A stretch of DNA of 64,000 bases from Maribacter arcticus (GTDB taxonomy: Bacteria; Bacteroidota; Bacteroidia; Flavobacteriales; Flavobacteriaceae): contig NZ_FUYL01000002.1 of the NCBI RefSeq assembly GCF_900167935.1, positions 484,985 through 548,984 of the forward strand, given 5' to 3'. The position numbers and the translations under genes are program-made. Below, piece by piece: positions 3,943 through 56,222 of this stretch. The notes under the pieces were generated by a model, which saw only the letters and a list, made by a program, of their open reading frames with translations, was not told the origin of the DNA and ran no database searches. How positions within the stretch are numbered: position 1 is the stretch's first letter; each line of letters opens with the position of its first letter.

Positions 3943-6558
3943 TTAATCCGAAGCCCCCTCATATATCGTATTGAATATAAGCTTATATGTGCCACGAGGT
4001 TGTGCTCTAAACTGCGGCCGAAATGCAAATAACACTACGGCGCCTTTACCATACTTTGCTTTTACCATGGCTGGTTTTTTAGCAATGTATTTTTTCTCAC
4101 CCATAGCCCAACCGCTCATGAGCAAGTCTTTTTCGGCGTAATTGGCAATCACCTCAATTTCTGGTGCAGGAGCATCTTTAATATCTTCTGTACCCCCTTC
4201 TCCTTTTTTCTCTTGTTTTTCAATCTCAAACGCGCGGCTTTTATTGAACGATACTGCTACCGTATCTTGCATACCAAATGCCAACGGGTGCGTCGTATCG
4301 AAGCCTGTTTTAATTAAGGATCCCGGGATAAAAAACTGTTTGTTATCGGTACCTGCGGTAGCATCTTTAATCGGTAACCCGAATTGTTCAATCACGTAAT
4401 TACTAGCCTCATCAAAAGCCATTAGCGTACCGCCATTCTTTACATAGTTACTTAAGGCTACAGAACCTTCAAGGCCTAATCCTCCTGTAAATTTTTCTGG
4501 CATTTCTAAAGTAGAATTTCCGTGTAAAAGTGATTTCACGCGTTGCGAAGGCAGTATCAACACATCGTATTGAGACAAGTCTGCCGTTTGAATATCTTTA
4601 TCATGTAAGGTATCGGTTTCAAAGGCATATTCATCCATGATAAAACGTGTCCACCCTTCATCCATATTCGATACCCAAGACTTGTACAGCCCCACTTTAG
4701 GAAGGTGAATTTTAGTCATTTCAATTTTTGGTTCTGCAGATAACCCTGTAACCTCAAGACCATATTCGCTAGCCAATGCATCGATAGACGCACTACCCCC
4801 AGAAACGATATACGATCCTGCAGGAATGGTTGTTTTACCCGATTTAAAAGCCGCTTTGGTTTTGTACGCTGTACCACCTGCCTTTAATATTTTGTTGGTG
4901 GCAATAACCGAGGCATTCGTGTTGGCGCTCAACGCATAGCCAAAAGAAGCTTTGCCCTTTACTTCGCCCTCATAATACTTCGCTACATCAGCTACTTTCT
5001 CGGTAGCAATTTCCATAGGTGCTGCAATTTTATCTACGGCAACGCCCATTTGAAATGGTAAGGTCCATCCCGCTAAATCATAAGGGGTATCCGGTGGTCC
5101 ACCAGGATATTGAAAACGGGTCGGGTAATTTTGTTTTTCCAGCAAATCCATCAAATACGGCCGAAATGCTTGTCCCGCATAAATAACATACGAACCTGCT
5201 TCATATTTCTTATCATTGGCCTCAAAGCTCTTCGTGGCCTTTTCAATTTCTATGCCGCCTTTAAGCAACACGTTTACAAGGTTTACAGACTCAAAAGCAT
5301 CCCATTGGTCCTTGCCAATTACATAGGCATACGGACCTTCTGTTTTCGACTTTTCAATGGCCGAAGCGCCCATTTTATAAATGTTATGTAGGTAGTTGCT
5401 CTTACGGTCTGCAGCCAAGTCTAAGGTTGCCCAAGTTGCGGTCAACATATAATCTACGGCATCACGAAAATGCGATTCGCCACCTTTCCAAGGGTCTGGG
5501 TACATAATATCGGTACCGTCTGTCGGTGTATCACCAGCTACTGTTTTCGGTAGTTTCTCTGGGTCGTAAAATCGAGGTGTTGGGGTTGTGTGCCCCGTTT
5601 CGGTCAAAATACCAATCATATTATGGTAATACGGTACGGTACGGCCTCCGCCATTCCAAAACATGGTATAGAAATTATCAGCGATTGCCCCTGGCATATT
5701 CTCTAATGAAAATCGTTTTGTCATGGCTGAACCTACTTCACTCACTGCAGCCGTAATAGCAGGGTGAATTTTAGGGTTCACAGGATCCGCATACGGCGGT
5801 AATGAAATTTTTGTCCATGAAGGTGACGATTGGTGGTGGTTATACACAATCTGTGGATACCATTCGTTGTACAAAATCTTAGTCACATTATAGGTCTCTG
5901 GCATGGTATTCATAAACCAGTCTCTATTGTTATCATGGCCCATGTAATAATGATATAAAATTGGCGGCCGTGAAGTTTCATAGGCCGTACCCATATTCTT
6001 TCGATACCAATCAACAACAATATCTAACCCATCAGGATTCATTACCGGCATTAATATGGTGATGACATTTTCCCTAATTTTTTTCATTTCGGTCGTCTCC
6101 GACGTTGCCAAGGTATAGGCCAGTTCAGAGGTCATTTGACCATGTGCCAATTCGGTAGAGTGCATACCGCCATCTACCCAAACGATTGCTTTGCCTTCTT
6201 CTGAAAGTTTTAAAGCTTCGTCTTCAGTAACCTGTACGCGTGCCAATTTGGTGCTGATGTCTTTCCACTTATCGAGTTGCGTAAGGTTTTGCTCACTTGA
6301 AATGAATAAGATGTACATTTTTCTACCTAAGACCGTAGTGCCTATTTCAACTTTTTTAACCCTGTTAGAAGCATCATCTAGTTTACTTAAATAGTCTTCT
6401 ATTTGAGTATAATCGGCCAGTTTGTAGTCTGCACCGACCTTGAAACCATACACATCTTCTGGGGAAGGAACATTTTGAGCCATAATCATTGGTATACATG
6501 ACATGGCTAGTGCAATAGTCAGTACTACGACTTTGCGCCTAGAGTTTTTTAAAATCAT
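3943..6558 (-). CDS. secreted M14-family zinc carboxypeptidase
   Basis: 871 residues with an N-terminal signal peptide (hydrophobic VVVLTIALAMSCIPMI ending near Ala27). The M14 zinc site begins with H133-S-T-E136 in GGMHSTELAHG; MPVMNPDGLD, NNRDWFMNT and YNHHQSSPSWT supply the substrate-binding Asn-Arg region and further conserved residues. Such enzymes trim C-terminal residues from extracellular peptides. The C-terminal ~300 residues follow the catalytic domain and include a stretch resembling a class I glutamine-amidotransferase-like fold (YDVLILPSQRV, NYVKNGGTLMAF), common in long Bacteroidota members. It is a single gene, convergent with the BREX operon and divergent from the DUF1080 gene. 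Confidence 0.85.
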   Translation of the reverse strand: MILKNSRRKVVVLTIALAMSCIPMIMAQNVPSPEDVYGFKVGADYKLADYTQIEDYLSKLDDASNRVKKVEIGTTVLGRKMYILFISSEQNLTQLDKWKDISTKLARVQVTEDEALKLSEEGKAIVWVDGGMHSTELAHGQMTSELAYTLATSETTEMKKIRENVITILMPVMNPDGLDIVVDWYRKNMGTAYETSRPPILYHYYMGHDNNRDWFMNTMPETYNVTKILYNEWYPQIVYNHHQSSPSWTKISLPPYADPVNPKIHPAITAAVSEVGSAMTKRFSLENMPGAIADNFYTMFWNGGGRTVPYYHNMIGILTETGHTTPTPRFYDPEKLPKTVAGDTPTDGTDIMYPDPWKGGESHFRDAVDYMLTATWATLDLAADRKSNYLHNIYKMGASAIEKSKTEGPYAYVIGKDQWDAFESVNLVNVLLKGGIEIEKATKSFEANDKKYEAGSYVIYAGQAFRPYLMDLLEKQNYPTRFQYPGGPPDTPYDLAGWTLPFQMGVAVDKIAAPMEIATEKVADVAKYYEGEVKGKASFGYALSANTNASVIATNKILKAGGTAYKTKAAFKSGKTTIPAGSYIVSGGSASIDALASEYGLEVTGLSAEPKIEMTKIHLPKVGLYKSWVSNMDEGWTRFIMDEYAFETDTLHDKDIQTADLSQYDVLILPSQRVKSLLHGNSTLEMPEKFTGGLGLEGSVALSNYVKNGGTLMAFDEASNYVIEQFGLPIKDATAGTDNKQFFIPGSLIKTGFDTTHPLAFGMQDTVAVSFNKSRAFEIEKQEKKGEGGTEDIKDAPAPEIEVIANYAEKDLLMSGWAMGEKKYIAKKPAMVKAKYGKGAVVLFAFRPQFRAQPRGTYKLIFNTIYEGASD

Positions 6559-48249: not shown

Positions 48250-48953
48250 GTTTCAATCTTTAGATATTCAATAACGTTGGGCGGTAAATATTTCAAAAAT
48301 CCTCCGTTTAAAGAGTCATTCAAAATTCTTGACAGCCAATTTCAATTACCCCGAATAGTAGTTTTACCAAAACTGTTTTTTTGACATTGCTCTATAGAAT
48401 GTCTTACTGTTGGTTCTTTGACCAATATAAATATTGAGTAATTTAACCATGCTTGTTGGTTAAAGAGTTAATTATAGGCGCAATAAAAACAAGGTTCAAC
48501 AAAAAACATAACAATTGGCTGTTTGTGGCATTCTTATATGATTGATAAACAAAGGCTTGTTATAATTTTAATATCAATTGACACAAATAGCTATTTCGTT
48601 TTGAGCTTCAAATCATAATAGCTAATTATAATATATCTCTTACAAGAAATAGAGAAAATGCCTAATTTTATATCCGCTTTTTTTAACTTTGCCTAAAGTT
48701 CTCATTTTTAATTAGTTTCCCTTGGCGGTTAAAGTGCTATGTATCATGAGATAAATTTTAAAAATGCAACGCTTTAATTATACTTAACCATATTAAATTG
48801 GCCTTGGCAAGTAATGGAGTTAGAAAAGACTATAACTTATCAATTACTCCCTTCTTTATGATTTTAAAGCTGACGGCTTATTGCAAGTAATTCATATAAA
48901 TTGTTTATCTTAAATGAACCCCAACCCAAATTTTAATTACAAAAAAAATCTAA
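48250..48953. other. 704-nt intergenic region
   Basis: No gene is visible. GGCGGTAAATATTTCAAA at 48280-48297 matches 17 of 18 positions of 29809-29826 in the mobile element. TAACTTTG at 48684-48691 fits the -7 consensus, but 260 nt upstream of the kinase gene; a long leader or unrelated. Otherwise AT-rich without recognisable structure. Confidence 0.4.
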
Positions 48954-50627
48954 ATGCCTGAACCTAAACAGCATTCTATTTTTAACAAACCATTTTTAAT
49001 AGGTTTTCTGGTTTTTCTGTTAGTGCTCATAATTTCTCAAACAATTACTTATCAGAAATTTCAAATACTTCAAGAAGCACAGCAGCATGAAGTGAATGAA
49101 AGAGTACTAAAATTAAAAGAAGACTTACAGGACATTTTTGATCAAAGTTTTGACGCAACCCAAACCTTGTCATTTATAGTTGAAAACTATGGTATACCCA
49201 ATAATTTTGATAGTATTACACAGTTACTTTTAAATAGTAATAAGCATATTGACGCCCTAGAACTTGTCGATGACCAAGGGGTTATAACACATGTATATCC
49301 TTTAAAGGGCAATGATATTTTGGGATTTAATATTCTAGAAGATTCTATAGGGCAAGACGGAGCGCTTACAACCCTTAAAAGAAGAGATTACTTTACAGCG
49401 GGTCCAATTAGCTTAAAACAAGGGGGTACAGGTTTTGTGAGTAGAAGACCGTTGTTTAACGAAAATGGTTTTGCTGGCTTTGTAGCTACCCTCGTAAAAT
49501 TGTCTACCGTTGTAACTGTAGCACAGCTAGATTCTTTGGAAAACACTAATTTTTCCTATCAATTGGCAAAAATCAATGCTGATCAATCGGAAGAAATATT
49601 TTACAACAATACTAAAACTTCAACGGAAGGAGCTATTAAAGTTCCCATAACGACCAGCCATGGGGAAATGAAACTTTACGTGATTTCAAATCGATCACAG
49701 TCCTATTCAACCATTCTTTTCTTTTTCATTTTAGGACTATTACTCGCCCTTGTTTGCGGGGTTTTTACTATGTTTTTTCTACGACAACCCATTAAACTAA
49801 ATCAATTGGTTCAAGAAAAAACAGGGTTGTTAAAGGAAAGTCAAGAGAAGTACCAAACATTAATAGAACAAGCCTCTGATGGCATACTCGTTTTCAATAA
49901 TTCTGGTGACATTATAGATATCAATATCTTGGGTGCAGAAATGATCGGATATGCAAAACATGAATTGACACAAAAAAACATTGCCGATATAATCGCCCCA
50001 GATGATTTGGCAAAAACCCCTTTAAGATTTTCTAAAATCACGAAAGAAAAACCTTTTCTATCTGAACGAAAGTTAATCCGAAAAGATGGTAGTGTTTTTT
50101 ATGGGGAAATCAGTTCCAAAATGTTACCCGATAACACCATACAAGGCATCATAAGGGATACAACCGAAAGAAGAGAACTAGAACAAACTGCTCAAAATAA
50201 TTTACAAAAATTCAGCAAGGCATTTAATAATAGTACCATTGGCATGGCGATAAGAGACCAAAACAAACGTTTTGTGGATGCCAATTGCTATTTTCTAGAT
50301 TTAATTGGCTACACCCTAGAAGAAATAAAAGGAAAAGCAATTCAAGAATTAGGCATTTTTGATTTTGAGGCGAATCTAAAAATTAACCCGTCATTAGCGG
50401 ACTTTGCTACCATAGACAAGATAGGCAAATTGGACGTGGTATTCAAAACAAAATCTGGCAAGGTTTTATATTTATTAGCATCTAAAGAATCGTTTGACTT
50501 TGAAAATGAAAAATTCTCCTTGACTTCCTTTGTGGATCAAACAGAGGCAAAAAAGGCGAGCCTAGAAATTAGACAGAGTGAAGCTAAATTTCGTGAATTG
50601 ACCGTCATTGGAATTATACTTACATAA
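48954..50627 (+). pseudogene. N-terminal half of a CHASE/PAS histidine kinase, frameshifted
   Basis: 557 codons: membrane segment (LIGFLVFLLVLIISQTITYQ, ~12-33), an extracellular CHASE-like domain (VITHVYPLKGND ... GGTGFVSRRPLFNENGFAGF, ~40-235), second membrane segment (TILFFFILGLLLALVCGVFT, ~253-275), two PAS domains (~295-415 and ~420-535), then the start of a third: SEAKFRELTVIGIILT and stop. The third PAS resumes in another frame at DRHWNYTYINARAAKIL (50600-50650). A short deletion after FREL has joined the frames wrongly; the original single gene ran 48954-53113. Confidence 0.65.
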
Positions 50628-50668
50628 ATGCCCGGGCTGCAAAAATATTAAACATTGATCCAAAAATA

Positions 50669-53113
50669 TTGATTGGCAAAAATGTCTGGGAAGAATATCC
50701 GGATTTCGCGAAAACGGAGGCTTATTCATTTTTTCATGATGCCATGAAAAATCAAACCTATACTAAATTTGAACAATATCATCCACAATTTAATTCTTGG
50801 ATAGAAAATAAACTTTATCCTTCCCCAGAAGGAGTTACCGTATACTTTAGGGACATTACCAAAAAGAAAAAGGCAGACCAAGAGAATCAAAAATTGATTG
50901 CCATTATTGAAAATAGCCCTGGCTTTATTGGGTTAACATCTTTGGAGGGTAATTCACTTTACTTAAATGAAGCCGGCAAAAAATTAGTTGGTTTTTCTGC
51001 AGAGAAGGATATTACTGAGACTACTATTGCTGACTTTTTTCCAGAAGAATATGGTGATGACATAATCAACAAACATCTTACATATTTACATAAAACTGGG
51101 GTGTGGAATATGGAAGTTCCTTTTAAGAATTTTAAAACGAACAAAATAGTACCTGCCGAATTTTCAGGTTTTATAATTCGTGACAAAACATCAAATGAAC
51201 CCATTGGTATTGGTTGTATCGCCTTTGATTTAACTGAGCATAAAAGGTCACAGCATGAAATTCTTGACCTACAAACAAAAATGGATGCTGCAATACGCAT
51301 TGGTAAAATTGGGTATTGGGACTATGATATTGAAACAGAAAATGCCAATTGGTCTCCTAGATTGTATGAAATTTACAATGTTAAGCCAGGCACCACTATT
51401 ACCATTCCATTGCTTGAAAATTTAATTCATCCAGATGACGTGGATCTTCACCGTAAAGTTTTGAAGGAAACAATTGTTGAAAATGGCACGCATTCATATA
51501 CATATAGAATATTTGACAACAATGGCTCAATTAAATACTTGCATATAGAAATGGAAGCTGATTTTAATGAGGAGGATTTACCTGTTAAATTAAGAGGTAC
51601 CGTTGTTTATATTACAGAACAAAAGGAAGCGAACAACAAAATTCTTGAACTGCAAAATAAGATGGACGCTGCCATTCGAATAGGAAAGATTGGGTATTGG
51701 GGCTGGGATTTGGAGAATAATCTCGTAGAATGGTCTAATGAGATGTTTGAAATATACGGTATTCCTAATAAGAATAACATAACTATAGAAGAAGCAATCG
51801 AATTTATTCATCCAGACGACTCTAATGTATTAGCAGAGGTTTTGAGCAGAAAACAAGACGAGGACCAGACGACCCCAGCGGTTTATAAAATCTGCCTTAA
51901 AGATAAAACCGTTAAACATATTTTAAGTTTCAGCGAGAATGTTTATAATAATCAAGGCAAACCCATAAAATTACATGGTACTGCTATTGACATCACTAAG
52001 AGTGTTTTAGCAGAAGAAGCACTTAAAGAAAACAAAGAGAAATTTACAAAAGCATTTCAAACCAATTTAATGGGCATAATTATGCTTAATAGCGAAAGAA
52101 AAGTAATAGAAGCCAATGATGTTGTTTATAAACTATTAGAGGTTAATCGAGAAGGGTTGATCGGAAAAACAATTATGGAATCTGCCATCGCTGTAATGGA
52201 AAACTATGATGACAATGAAAGAGAAAAATTTTGGAAATACTTTCTCAAACATGGTAAAGTAATAAATCAAAAATTTAAAATAAACTTAAAAAGCGGTCAA
52301 AAAATATCTCTTTCAGTATCTATAGAGTCATTATTTTTTAATGACAAGGAACATTATTTGGTCAATTTAATTGATGAGACTACGAGAAAAGAGGCTGAAG
52401 AGGCTTTAGAACTGCAAAACATACAACTTAAGAAAACCAACTCTGAACTTGATAGTTTTGTGTACAGTGCGTCTCATGAACTAAGAGCTCCTTTAGCTTC
52501 AGTTTTAGGTCTTATAAACCTTATTTTAACAGAGGAGAATAAGCCTGGTTTAGTTGCCAGTCTTAATATGATGGAAAAATCTGTTAAAAGATTAGACGAT
52601 TTTATTAAGGATATTATCGAGTATTCTCGAAATAAACACCTTAAAGTAAACGTAGAAACCATAAATTTTACTAATTTAATAGAGAGTTCAATAGAAAGTT
52701 TTTGGTATTTAGAAAACATGAACAAAATAAAGATGAAGATTAATGTCGATGATAAAATTGATTTTGCTTCAGATAAAAAAAGAATCTCAATTCTATTAAA
52801 TAACTTTATTTCAAATGCGATTAAATACCACGATGTTAGCAAAAGGACACCAACAATATGGATTTCTATAAAGACTTCTAAAAAAGAAGCAATAATAACG
52901 ATAAAAGACAATGGTCTAGGAATGGCAGAAGAACAATTAGATAAAATATTTGATATGTTCTACAGAATATCTTCCCAAATAATGGGTTCTGGTATTGGTT
53001 TATTCATCGTTAAAGAAGTGTTAGGAAAATTGAATGGCACAATAGCGGTGAAATCTGCATTAGGAGAAGGTTCAACGTTTACATTAAAAATACCGAATGG
53101 ATCAGATAAATAA
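50669..53113 (+). CDS. C-terminal half of the same histidine kinase (PAS repeats, HisKA, HATPase)
   Basis: 814 codons open from a weak TTG; no good start or leader is present. It holds the rest of the broken PAS (GKNVWEEYPDF), a PAS (residues ~80-195), two near-identical PAS_3 repeats (MDAAIRIGKIGYWDYD at ~209 and MDAAIRIGKIGYWGWD at ~331), another PAS (~450-565), then HisKA with the phospho-acceptor in YSASHELRAPLASVLG and the HATPase boxes NNFISNAIKYHD, DNGLGM and GSGIGLFIVKEVL. If translated at all it would be a soluble kinase cut off from its sensor. A response regulator overlaps the end. Confidence 0.6.
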   Translation: MIGKNVWEEYPDFAKTEAYSFFHDAMKNQTYTKFEQYHPQFNSWIENKLYPSPEGVTVYFRDITKKKKADQENQKLIAIIENSPGFIGLTSLEGNSLYLNEAGKKLVGFSAEKDITETTIADFFPEEYGDDIINKHLTYLHKTGVWNMEVPFKNFKTNKIVPAEFSGFIIRDKTSNEPIGIGCIAFDLTEHKRSQHEILDLQTKMDAAIRIGKIGYWDYDIETENANWSPRLYEIYNVKPGTTITIPLLENLIHPDDVDLHRKVLKETIVENGTHSYTYRIFDNNGSIKYLHIEMEADFNEEDLPVKLRGTVVYITEQKEANNKILELQNKMDAAIRIGKIGYWGWDLENNLVEWSNEMFEIYGIPNKNNITIEEAIEFIHPDDSNVLAEVLSRKQDEDQTTPAVYKICLKDKTVKHILSFSENVYNNQGKPIKLHGTAIDITKSVLAEEALKENKEKFTKAFQTNLMGIIMLNSERKVIEANDVVYKLLEVNREGLIGKTIMESAIAVMENYDDNEREKFWKYFLKHGKVINQKFKINLKSGQKISLSVSIESLFFNDKEHYLVNLIDETTRKEAEEALELQNIQLKKTNSELDSFVYSASHELRAPLASVLGLINLILTEENKPGLVASLNMMEKSVKRLDDFIKDIIEYSRNKHLKVNVETINFTNLIESSIESFWYLENMNKIKMKINVDDKIDFASDKKRISILLNNFISNAIKYHDVSKRTPTIWISIKTSKKEAIITIKDNGLGMAEEQLDKIFDMFYRISSQIMGSGIGLFIVKEVLGKLNGTIAVKSALGEGSTFTLKIPNGSDK

Positions 53114-53519
53114 TAACATGAATGAGGAAATTATAGTGCTGTTAATAGACGATTCGGATGTTGACAATTTTATAAATAAGGCTATAGTTTCAAAAGAAGA
53201 GTATGTTTCCCAGATTATCGTCAAAAATTCTGGCTTAGATGCTCTTGTGTTTTTAAACATCATTGTGGATCAGCCAGAATCTTATCCAGATTTTATTTTT
53301 CTAGACATAAGAATGCCTGGCATGTCTGGCTTTGAATTCTTAGAGGAATATATGAAGTTACCAGAGGCCATAACAAATCATCCAAAAATATATATCTTAA
53401 GTTCTTCAATGGATCCTTTAGATAATGAAAAAGGTGCAAACTATAGCGTTGTTAAAGGACACTTAACCAAACCCCTCGCACATCACAACCTTACTGATTT
53501 ATTATTAGCAGATTCTTAA
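53097..53519 (+). CDS. single-domain response regulator
   Basis: 140 residues. IVLLIDDSDVDNFINKAI (acidic pocket), DFIFLDIRMPGMSGFEFLEE (phospho-acceptor Asp), YILSSSMDP (Ser) and KGHLTKPLAHH (Lys-Pro) make a complete receiver domain with no output domain. It overlaps the kinase end by 17 nt (or starts at 53118 without overlap) and is its evident partner, in the CheY-like style of Bacteroidota phosphorelays. Confidence 0.88.
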   Translation: MDQINNNMNEEIIVLLIDDSDVDNFINKAIVSKEEYVSQIIVKNSGLDALVFLNIIVDQPESYPDFIFLDIRMPGMSGFEFLEEYMKLPEAITNHPKIYILSSSMDPLDNEKGANYSVVKGHLTKPLAHHNLTDLLLADS

Positions 53520-54569: not shown

Positions 54570-56222
54570 ATGACAAATACATATTTAAAATCATTATTTG
54601 CTCTTTCAATTGTTGCATTACTAACCAGTTGTGGTAGTACGAGTTCGGCAACAGGCGGGGGCGGACTAATTCTCACTCCCGTTGAGAATATTGATACAAC
54701 CCCTTTAAAAATAGCAGACCTCACCACAAGTGAAAAGAATAATTGGGGACATTTAGATTTAGTAGCAGACACTATACCAGGAATGAGTGTTGATAAAGCA
54801 TACGCTGAAATTATAAAAAACAGAAAAGGAACTAAAACCATTGTAGCAGTTCTTGACTCGGGTATTGATTTAAACCATGAAGATCTTGATGGAGTTCTAT
54901 GGACAAATACCAAAGAAAAAGCAGGCAACAATATCGACGATGATGGCAATGGCTACATAGATGATATTCATGGATACAATTTCTTAGGCGAATCTTACAA
55001 TGAACAACTAGAGTACGTTCGTATGTTGCGCTTAAACATTGGTGACGCAGCAACGCTTTCGAAGGCAAAAACAAAACTAGATGCAAAATATAACGAGGCT
55101 CTACAGGGTAAACAGCAATACGAGCAAATATTACAAGCTGTTAAAAATGCAGGCGCAGGTGTTAAAGAATATTTGAAAAAAGATACGTACACTAAAGAAG
55201 ATTTGGCGGGCATAAAGACAACTGATGAAGCTATGCAACGAAACATTGCTGTTCTTAATCAAATGTTCAGCATTCAAGACTCTATCCCTAAGGTATTAAA
55301 GGAATTAAATGAGGGCGTTAAATATTATACCGAGCAACTCAACTACAACTTAAATAAAGACTTCAACGGTAGATTACCTGTAGGTGATGACGCATATGAT
55401 ATAAGTGATGTAAATTATGGTAACGGTAACCCTAAAAACAGGGTTGACGATGAAAGCCATGGTACACATGTTGCTGGTATTATAGCTGCTGAACGTAATA
55501 ATGGTAAAGGAGTAAATGGAGTTGCCAACAACGTTGCAATTATGAGTATCAGAGCCGTACCAAATGGTGATGAATATGATAAAGATATCGCGCTAGGTAT
55601 TCGCTATGCTGTTGATAATGGTGCCCGAGTTATAAATGGAAGTTTTGGAAAATCATTTTCACCAAAATCAGAATGGGTATATGAAGCGATTAAATATGCC
55701 GCTGAAAAAAATGTGCTTTTTGTACATGCAGCAGGTAATGATGGTGCAAATCTAGACGACCCAACTAATGGTAATTACCCAAATGACCAAGTGAACAACG
55801 GTCCTGAAATTGCAGATAATGTAATAACCGTTGGTGCTTTGAATCCGAAATATGGTTCAGAATTGGTAGCAAGCTATTCTAATTACGGTAAAGTAAATGT
55901 TGATGTTTTTGCTCCTGGTACCGATATCTATTCTACCTTCCCAAACAATGAATATGAGTATTCACCAGGCACGTCAATGGCAGCACCTGCCGTAGCGGGA
56001 GTAGCAGCCTTGGTAATGTCACAATATCCATCACTTACAGCAGCACAGGTAAAAAATATTCTGTTGCAATCTGGTCTTCCAATTAAAACTAAAGTGATAT
56101 TAGGTGGAGATAATGCTAAAAGTGCTTCATTAGACCAAATTTCAACTTCTGGAAAAATCGTGAATGCCTACAATGCATTAGTATTGGCAAGCAAAGTAGC
56201 TGCAGGACAGATTCAATTATAA
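54570..56222 (+). CDS. S8 subtilisin-like serine protease, lipoprotein
   Basis: 550 residues; lipobox LLTSC then a Gly/Ser linker. Catalytic triad: Asp96 in VAVLDSGIDLNHEDLDG, His297 in DDESHGTHVAGIIAAE, Ser469 in SPGTSMAAPAVAGVAAL. About 140 residues are inserted between Asp and His (a helical part with LDAKYNEALQGKQQYEQILQ). The M1 peptidase gene starts 16 nt later, so the two probably make one secreted proteolytic unit. Confidence 0.92.
   Translation: MTNTYLKSLFALSIVALLTSCGSTSSATGGGGLILTPVENIDTTPLKIADLTTSEKNNWGHLDLVADTIPGMSVDKAYAEIIKNRKGTKTIVAVLDSGIDLNHEDLDGVLWTNTKEKAGNNIDDDGNGYIDDIHGYNFLGESYNEQLEYVRMLRLNIGDAATLSKAKTKLDAKYNEALQGKQQYEQILQAVKNAGAGVKEYLKKDTYTKEDLAGIKTTDEAMQRNIAVLNQMFSIQDSIPKVLKELNEGVKYYTEQLNYNLNKDFNGRLPVGDDAYDISDVNYGNGNPKNRVDDESHGTHVAGIIAAERNNGKGVNGVANNVAIMSIRAVPNGDEYDKDIALGIRYAVDNGARVINGSFGKSFSPKSEWVYEAIKYAAEKNVLFVHAAGNDGANLDDPTNGNYPNDQVNNGPEIADNVITVGALNPKYGSELVASYSNYGKVNVDVFAPGTDIYSTFPNNEYEYSPGTSMAAPAVAGVAALVMSQYPSLTAAQVKNILLQSGLPIKTKVILGGDNAKSASLDQISTSGKIVNAYNALVLASKVAAGQIQL

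Follow-up and report, generated by a model that had tools for sequence, protein, structure and literature searches.

In the window, a 64,000-nucleotide stretch of the Maribacter arcticus genome, a gene for a large membrane histidine kinase with multiple PAS domains has very probably been broken in recent time; the gene encodes HisKA and HATPase_c modules and is followed by a single-domain response regulator. As judged from comparison with related genomes, the split appears to be a real-looking deletion-frameshift of non-triplet length within the third PAS domain (PAS3). The positions of the two halves, of the joint, and of the associated features are collected in Table 1.

Table 1. Features of the split kinase locus and of the corresponding gaps in relatives that lack the sensor. 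Positions are those of the window, except for residue numbers (aa) and the last three rows.
Feature	Position	Strand	Description
Upstream half	48954..50627	+	Membrane sensor region, PAS1, PAS2, first PAS3 residues, 7 out-of-frame residues (VIGIILT), TAA stop
Pfam matches in upstream half	aa 308-405; aa 419-473		PAS_9; PAS_8
Changepoint support interval	50584..50610		Identity to G019 71% upstream, 96% downstream; lnL gain 112.8
High-identity segment	50595..52713		90-96% identity to G019; 71-72% in the segments on either side
Single remaining ATTGACCG, copy of 8-bp direct repeat	50597..50604	+	Site of 34-nt loss and frame change
Downstream half	50600..53113	+	Remaining PAS3, further PAS modules, HisKA, HATPase_c
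Single-domain response regulator	53118..53519	+	PF00072, E 8.4e-11; directly 3' of the kinase
SulP-MBL gap, G012 (L088)	about 5750-5841
SulP-MBL gap, G009 (L089)	about 5771-5865
SulP-MBL gap, G024 (L090)	about 5190-5285

The upstream open reading frame encodes 557 residues and stops seven residues past ...KFRELT, while the sequence continues in another frame as DRHWNYTYINARAAKIL and stays open to the end of the kinase; neither half contains further stops. The comparisons described below confirm the original prediction that the FREL part and the DRHWNYTYINARAAKIL part are adjacent pieces of one PAS domain in different frames. Pfam recognises HisKA and HATPase_c in the downstream half (PF00512, E 3.1e-10; PF02518, E 7.2e-24), where we also read four further PAS modules. 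PAS modules occur in both halves, but they are spread over two frames instead of sharing a single one with the kinase. In G019, which is the closest relative found, the PAS_4 match starts at profile position 2; in the window it starts at position 12, indicating that the start of PAS3 is missing there. The first start codons of the downstream frame, TTG at 50669 and ATG at 50744, both lie within PAS3. The response regulator retains an intact frame from its ATG at 53118, with a further in-frame ATG upstream at 53097.

The original prediction also assigned CHASE sensor and membrane parts to the upstream half and the kinase to the downstream half. The membrane sensor and the kinase were found as described, but the CHASE label was not borne out: residues 1-285 matched no CHASE family in Pfam at E values up to 0.1, and the sole hint of a sensor domain was PF22309, below its Pfam cut-off. 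With neither CHASE nor any other sensor above the Pfam cut-off, naming the sensor by domain family was rejected.

The closest point of reference is the orthologue in G019, a single open frame of 1398 codons with the same sensor, PAS, and kinase modules as the window. The gene order is also the same, USP-SulP-kinase-response regulator-MBL-S8 protease, where SulP and MBL are Pfam matches and USP and S8 are names from our own reading. The match to G019 covers residues 1-550 for the upstream half and all 837 codons for the downstream half, both in the same open frame, so the adjacency of the two halves is not due to chance. At the site of the break, G019 has ATTGACCG, 26 bases, and a second ATTGACCG, the two copies being 34 nt apart. 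Compared with this intact multi-PAS membrane histidine kinase, the copy in the window is 34 nt short where PAS3 begins, and from that point it continues out of frame. The loss of about 34 nt is measured against G019, whose flanking genes are 85-91% identical to those of the window and which serves as a proxy for the parent sequence. The two copies encode parts of E-L-T-E and I-D-R in G019 and lie in different frames; since 34 is not a multiple of three, their collapse shifts the frame.

Junction homology of at least 8 bp is expected for just 0.2% of the possible 34-bp deletions in the G019 gene. Given the size of the loss and its fit to the 8-bp repeat in G019, a base-calling slip is very unlikely as the source of the break, in line with the earlier view that a true mutation was the likelier of the two. 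The anticipated kinase split by a deletion-frameshift inside a PAS domain, with roughly a dozen residues missing, is likewise upheld by G019 and by the other relatives.

Within the genus, the sensor half was found in 31 of 36 genomes, the window genome included (E 1e-20 or better). Among the 30 other sensor-bearing genomes, 28 encode the sensor and the kinase end in one open frame, ranging from 656 to 1528 codons. In G010 the kinase is scattered across several frames and the S8 protease is split as well, breaks that are probably assembly or sequence errors; in G020 a contig end truncates the kinase, which also contains Ns and stops. Intact orthologues are thus present at the same place in relatives, as is looked for in a frameshift pseudogene. 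When 20 related loci were aligned at the break, the halves were continuous in 14, with exactly 10 residues between them (ERISDA[FY] plus three); the remaining six loci have no such PAS domain there, are broken into fragments, or gave no alignment across the site. The ERISDA motif occurs in 20 of the 30 relatives; among these 20, a repeat of at least 8 bp at the site is present only in G019, and no repeat there exceeds 5 bp in the other 19. The junction string of the window was absent from all 396 other genomes in a sample of 397 from the family, which holds only two other genus members; beyond that sample, coverage of the genus comes from the frames seen in the relatives' kinase genes. None of the relatives and family genomes examined encodes two genes with the same junction.

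The break coincides with an abrupt change in relatedness to G019. Identity in the flanking genes is 91% for USP, 85% for SulP, 87% for MBL, and 90% over the first 1487 nt of the S8 protease, and the MBL and S8 proteins of G019 are 93% and 92% identical to those of the window. In the kinase, identity is 71% up to 50594, 96% up to 51681, 90% up to 52713, and 72% thereafter, and it stays low in the response regulator. The support interval of the best changepoint, 50594, overlaps the remaining ATTGACCG, and the lnL gain at this changepoint compares with a largest value of 13.0 in 1000 codon-order shuffles. Synonymous difference (pS) from G019 drops at the junction, from 0.71 over the 67 codons that precede it to 0.21 over the 60 that follow. 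Accelerated evolution alone was rejected as an account of the divergence of the N half, because synonymous differences, too, change abruptly at a single site. By its identity profile, the window kinase gene is a mosaic whose sharpest ancestry boundary is where the break lies.

High divergence of the sensor is usual in this kinase gene. Measured against a genus-wide fit, however, similarity to G019 falls short of expectation by 14 points in the window sensor and 17 points in the response regulator, whereas the kinase end shows no such shortfall (-3.6). A test on 20 sequences, the window included, found parts of the shared segment to be atypical in the window genome as well as in G019; it comprised the sequences in which the motif was found or the halves were given and left out G010, G020, and G050. 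As donor of the N half, nothing closer than G019 (59%) was found in the 397 family genomes, with their two other genus members, and a search of genome_contigs returned five loci, two from Maribacter and three distant PAS matches elsewhere, none of them closer than G019.

Mosaicism of the kinase extends beyond the window genome. Abrupt identity steps were seen in the kinase of 7 of the 11 closest other pairs of genomes, the remaining four being without a step, whereas the S8 protease used as a control stepped in 0 of the 11. This suggests that segment exchange at the locus is common. The seven stepped pairs overlap and come from three groups (G016/G017/G041/G049, G040/G046, and G004/G015), so they are not independent. 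Only one other pair has a cut near ERISDA, 87 nt away. In the pair formed by the window genome and G019, the S8 control does show one step in identity, towards the 3' end of the gene. The pairwise comparisons behind the MBL and S8 protein identities, the genus-wide fit, the sensor divergence, and the 20-sequence test left out G010 (breaks in several frames), G020 (cut contig, Ns, and stops), and G050 (distant, on a short contig). The 3' end of the window S8 protease (56057-56219) is 71% identical to G019, against 90% in the remainder of the gene. The range of intact kinase lengths between genomes, taken together with the steps in close pairs, marks the locus as a possible hotspot of module exchange.

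How the break arose can be read in two main ways. On balance we lean towards plain replication slippage between the two ATTGACCG copies, or a deletion between them that did not need RecA, in either case with no connection to the older recombination breakpoint. An 8-bp direct repeat with copies 34 nt apart is a classic slippage substrate, and the one seen in G019 fits this role. The window locus resembles deletions between short direct repeats as they are generally known, in that the repeat is 8 bp long, one copy is kept, and the intervening DNA is lost; it differs from them in that its break sits on an ancestry boundary between divergent alleles. Slippage gives no reason for the break to lie just there, where the change of ancestry within the gene is strongest. 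We give it the larger share because it needs nothing special.

A less probable but serious alternative is that recombination itself made the break, an incoming allele segment being joined out of register where the upstream ATTGACCG in one parent matched the downstream copy in the other, so that the crossover removed 34 nt. The overlap of the changepoint interval with the repeat, the drop in pS across the junction, and the contrast between kinase steps and S8 controls in the other pairs all speak for it. The weight of the overlap depends on how often such coincidences arise. The G019 gene contains 20 repeat pairs of at least 8 bp with an offset of 10-100 nt, one of which lies at the 50594 changepoint and one near another: this second 8-bp pair, at G019 position 2761, is close to the changepoint at 51681, where no deletion occurred, so overlap of a repeat with a changepoint is not rare. 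With 20 repeat pairs and three changepoints, we roughly estimate the chance of such an overlap at 5-10%, and the coincidence therefore favours an out-of-register crossover only modestly. In addition, the atypical parts of the shared segment, being found in both genomes, do not tell the direction of exchange, the stepped pairs stem from just three genome groups, and the S8 control of the window genome and G019 is not free of steps. A clean exchange followed by slippage would also yield an identical final sequence.

The joint, where the ancestry change and the 8-bp microhomology coincide, can also be set beside homology-facilitated illegitimate recombination (PMC3240628). Recombination that is homologous at one end of a segment and joins illegitimately at the other would produce the pattern seen in the window. 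Unlike in that process, homology (at least 71%) extends to both sides of the window joint, which could also be secondary. A bolder reading, which we consider less likely than not, is that the Maribacter kinase locus is a hotspot for the exchange of sensor and PAS segments between species and that the window records a failed exchange, in which an 8-bp out-of-register crossover broke the kinase.

Whichever route produced it, the collapse of the two ATTGACCG copies shifts the frame. The sensor half now ends after seven foreign residues that fit no PAS domain, and the kinase half is left without a start region of its own. The kinase would then no longer be under the control of the sensor. Little or no kinase half may be made, which would render the system inactive and leave the response regulator without a partner.

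Such a loss seems tolerable in the genus, because 5 of the 36 genomes are without the sensor (no match at E 1e-20; two of them, G009 and G024, are 85% and 64% complete) and in three of these, G012, G009, and G024, the space between SulP and MBL is about 90 bp and contains neither a kinase nor a response regulator. On this gene content, the kinase is dispensable in Maribacter. The absence of other stops suggests that the event was recent. Taken as a whole, the sequence comparisons make the window copy most likely a recent loss-of-function allele of a dispensable kinase.

The clean open frames in both halves fit a recent event but would also fit a functioning split, in which the cell makes a membrane sensor protein without a kinase and translates a soluble kinase separately. 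In favour of this, neither of the two long frames is interrupted by further stops, and HisKA and HATPase_c are still recognised by Pfam. We nevertheless regard a functional split as improbable: the downstream frame has no plausible start, its first TTG and ATG lying inside PAS3; a scan with a Bacteroidetes promoter consensus gave 4 matches across the window, where 5.8 were expected, and none lay in the kinase locus; and the same split was seen in none of the relatives examined. A sequencing or assembly error is less probable still, since, even though G010 shows that at least one assembly in the genus has error-like breaks, the window lacks 34 nt with clean repeat ends on contig 12, 591,694 bases long, of an assembly (4.2 Mb, 22 contigs) rated 100% complete, and the open reading frames adjoining the split kinase are long and open. 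A mutation acquired in the laboratory could in principle also account for the loss.

A repeat-mediated frameshift is an ordinary kind of mutation; what is of interest is its position in a recombining sensor gene. With a mosaic gene in 7 of 11 close pairs and intact copies that differ so widely in length, the locus could serve to gauge the success rate of sensor-module swapping against the rate at which it ends in a broken gene. Among the literature matches listed, no title or abstract start names the locus.

The kinase is preceded by a 704-bp A+T-rich intergenic stretch (48250-48953). This stretch has no blastn match among the fetched relatives, and it is longer than the gap between the SulP and kinase frames in all eight relatives in which both were measured.
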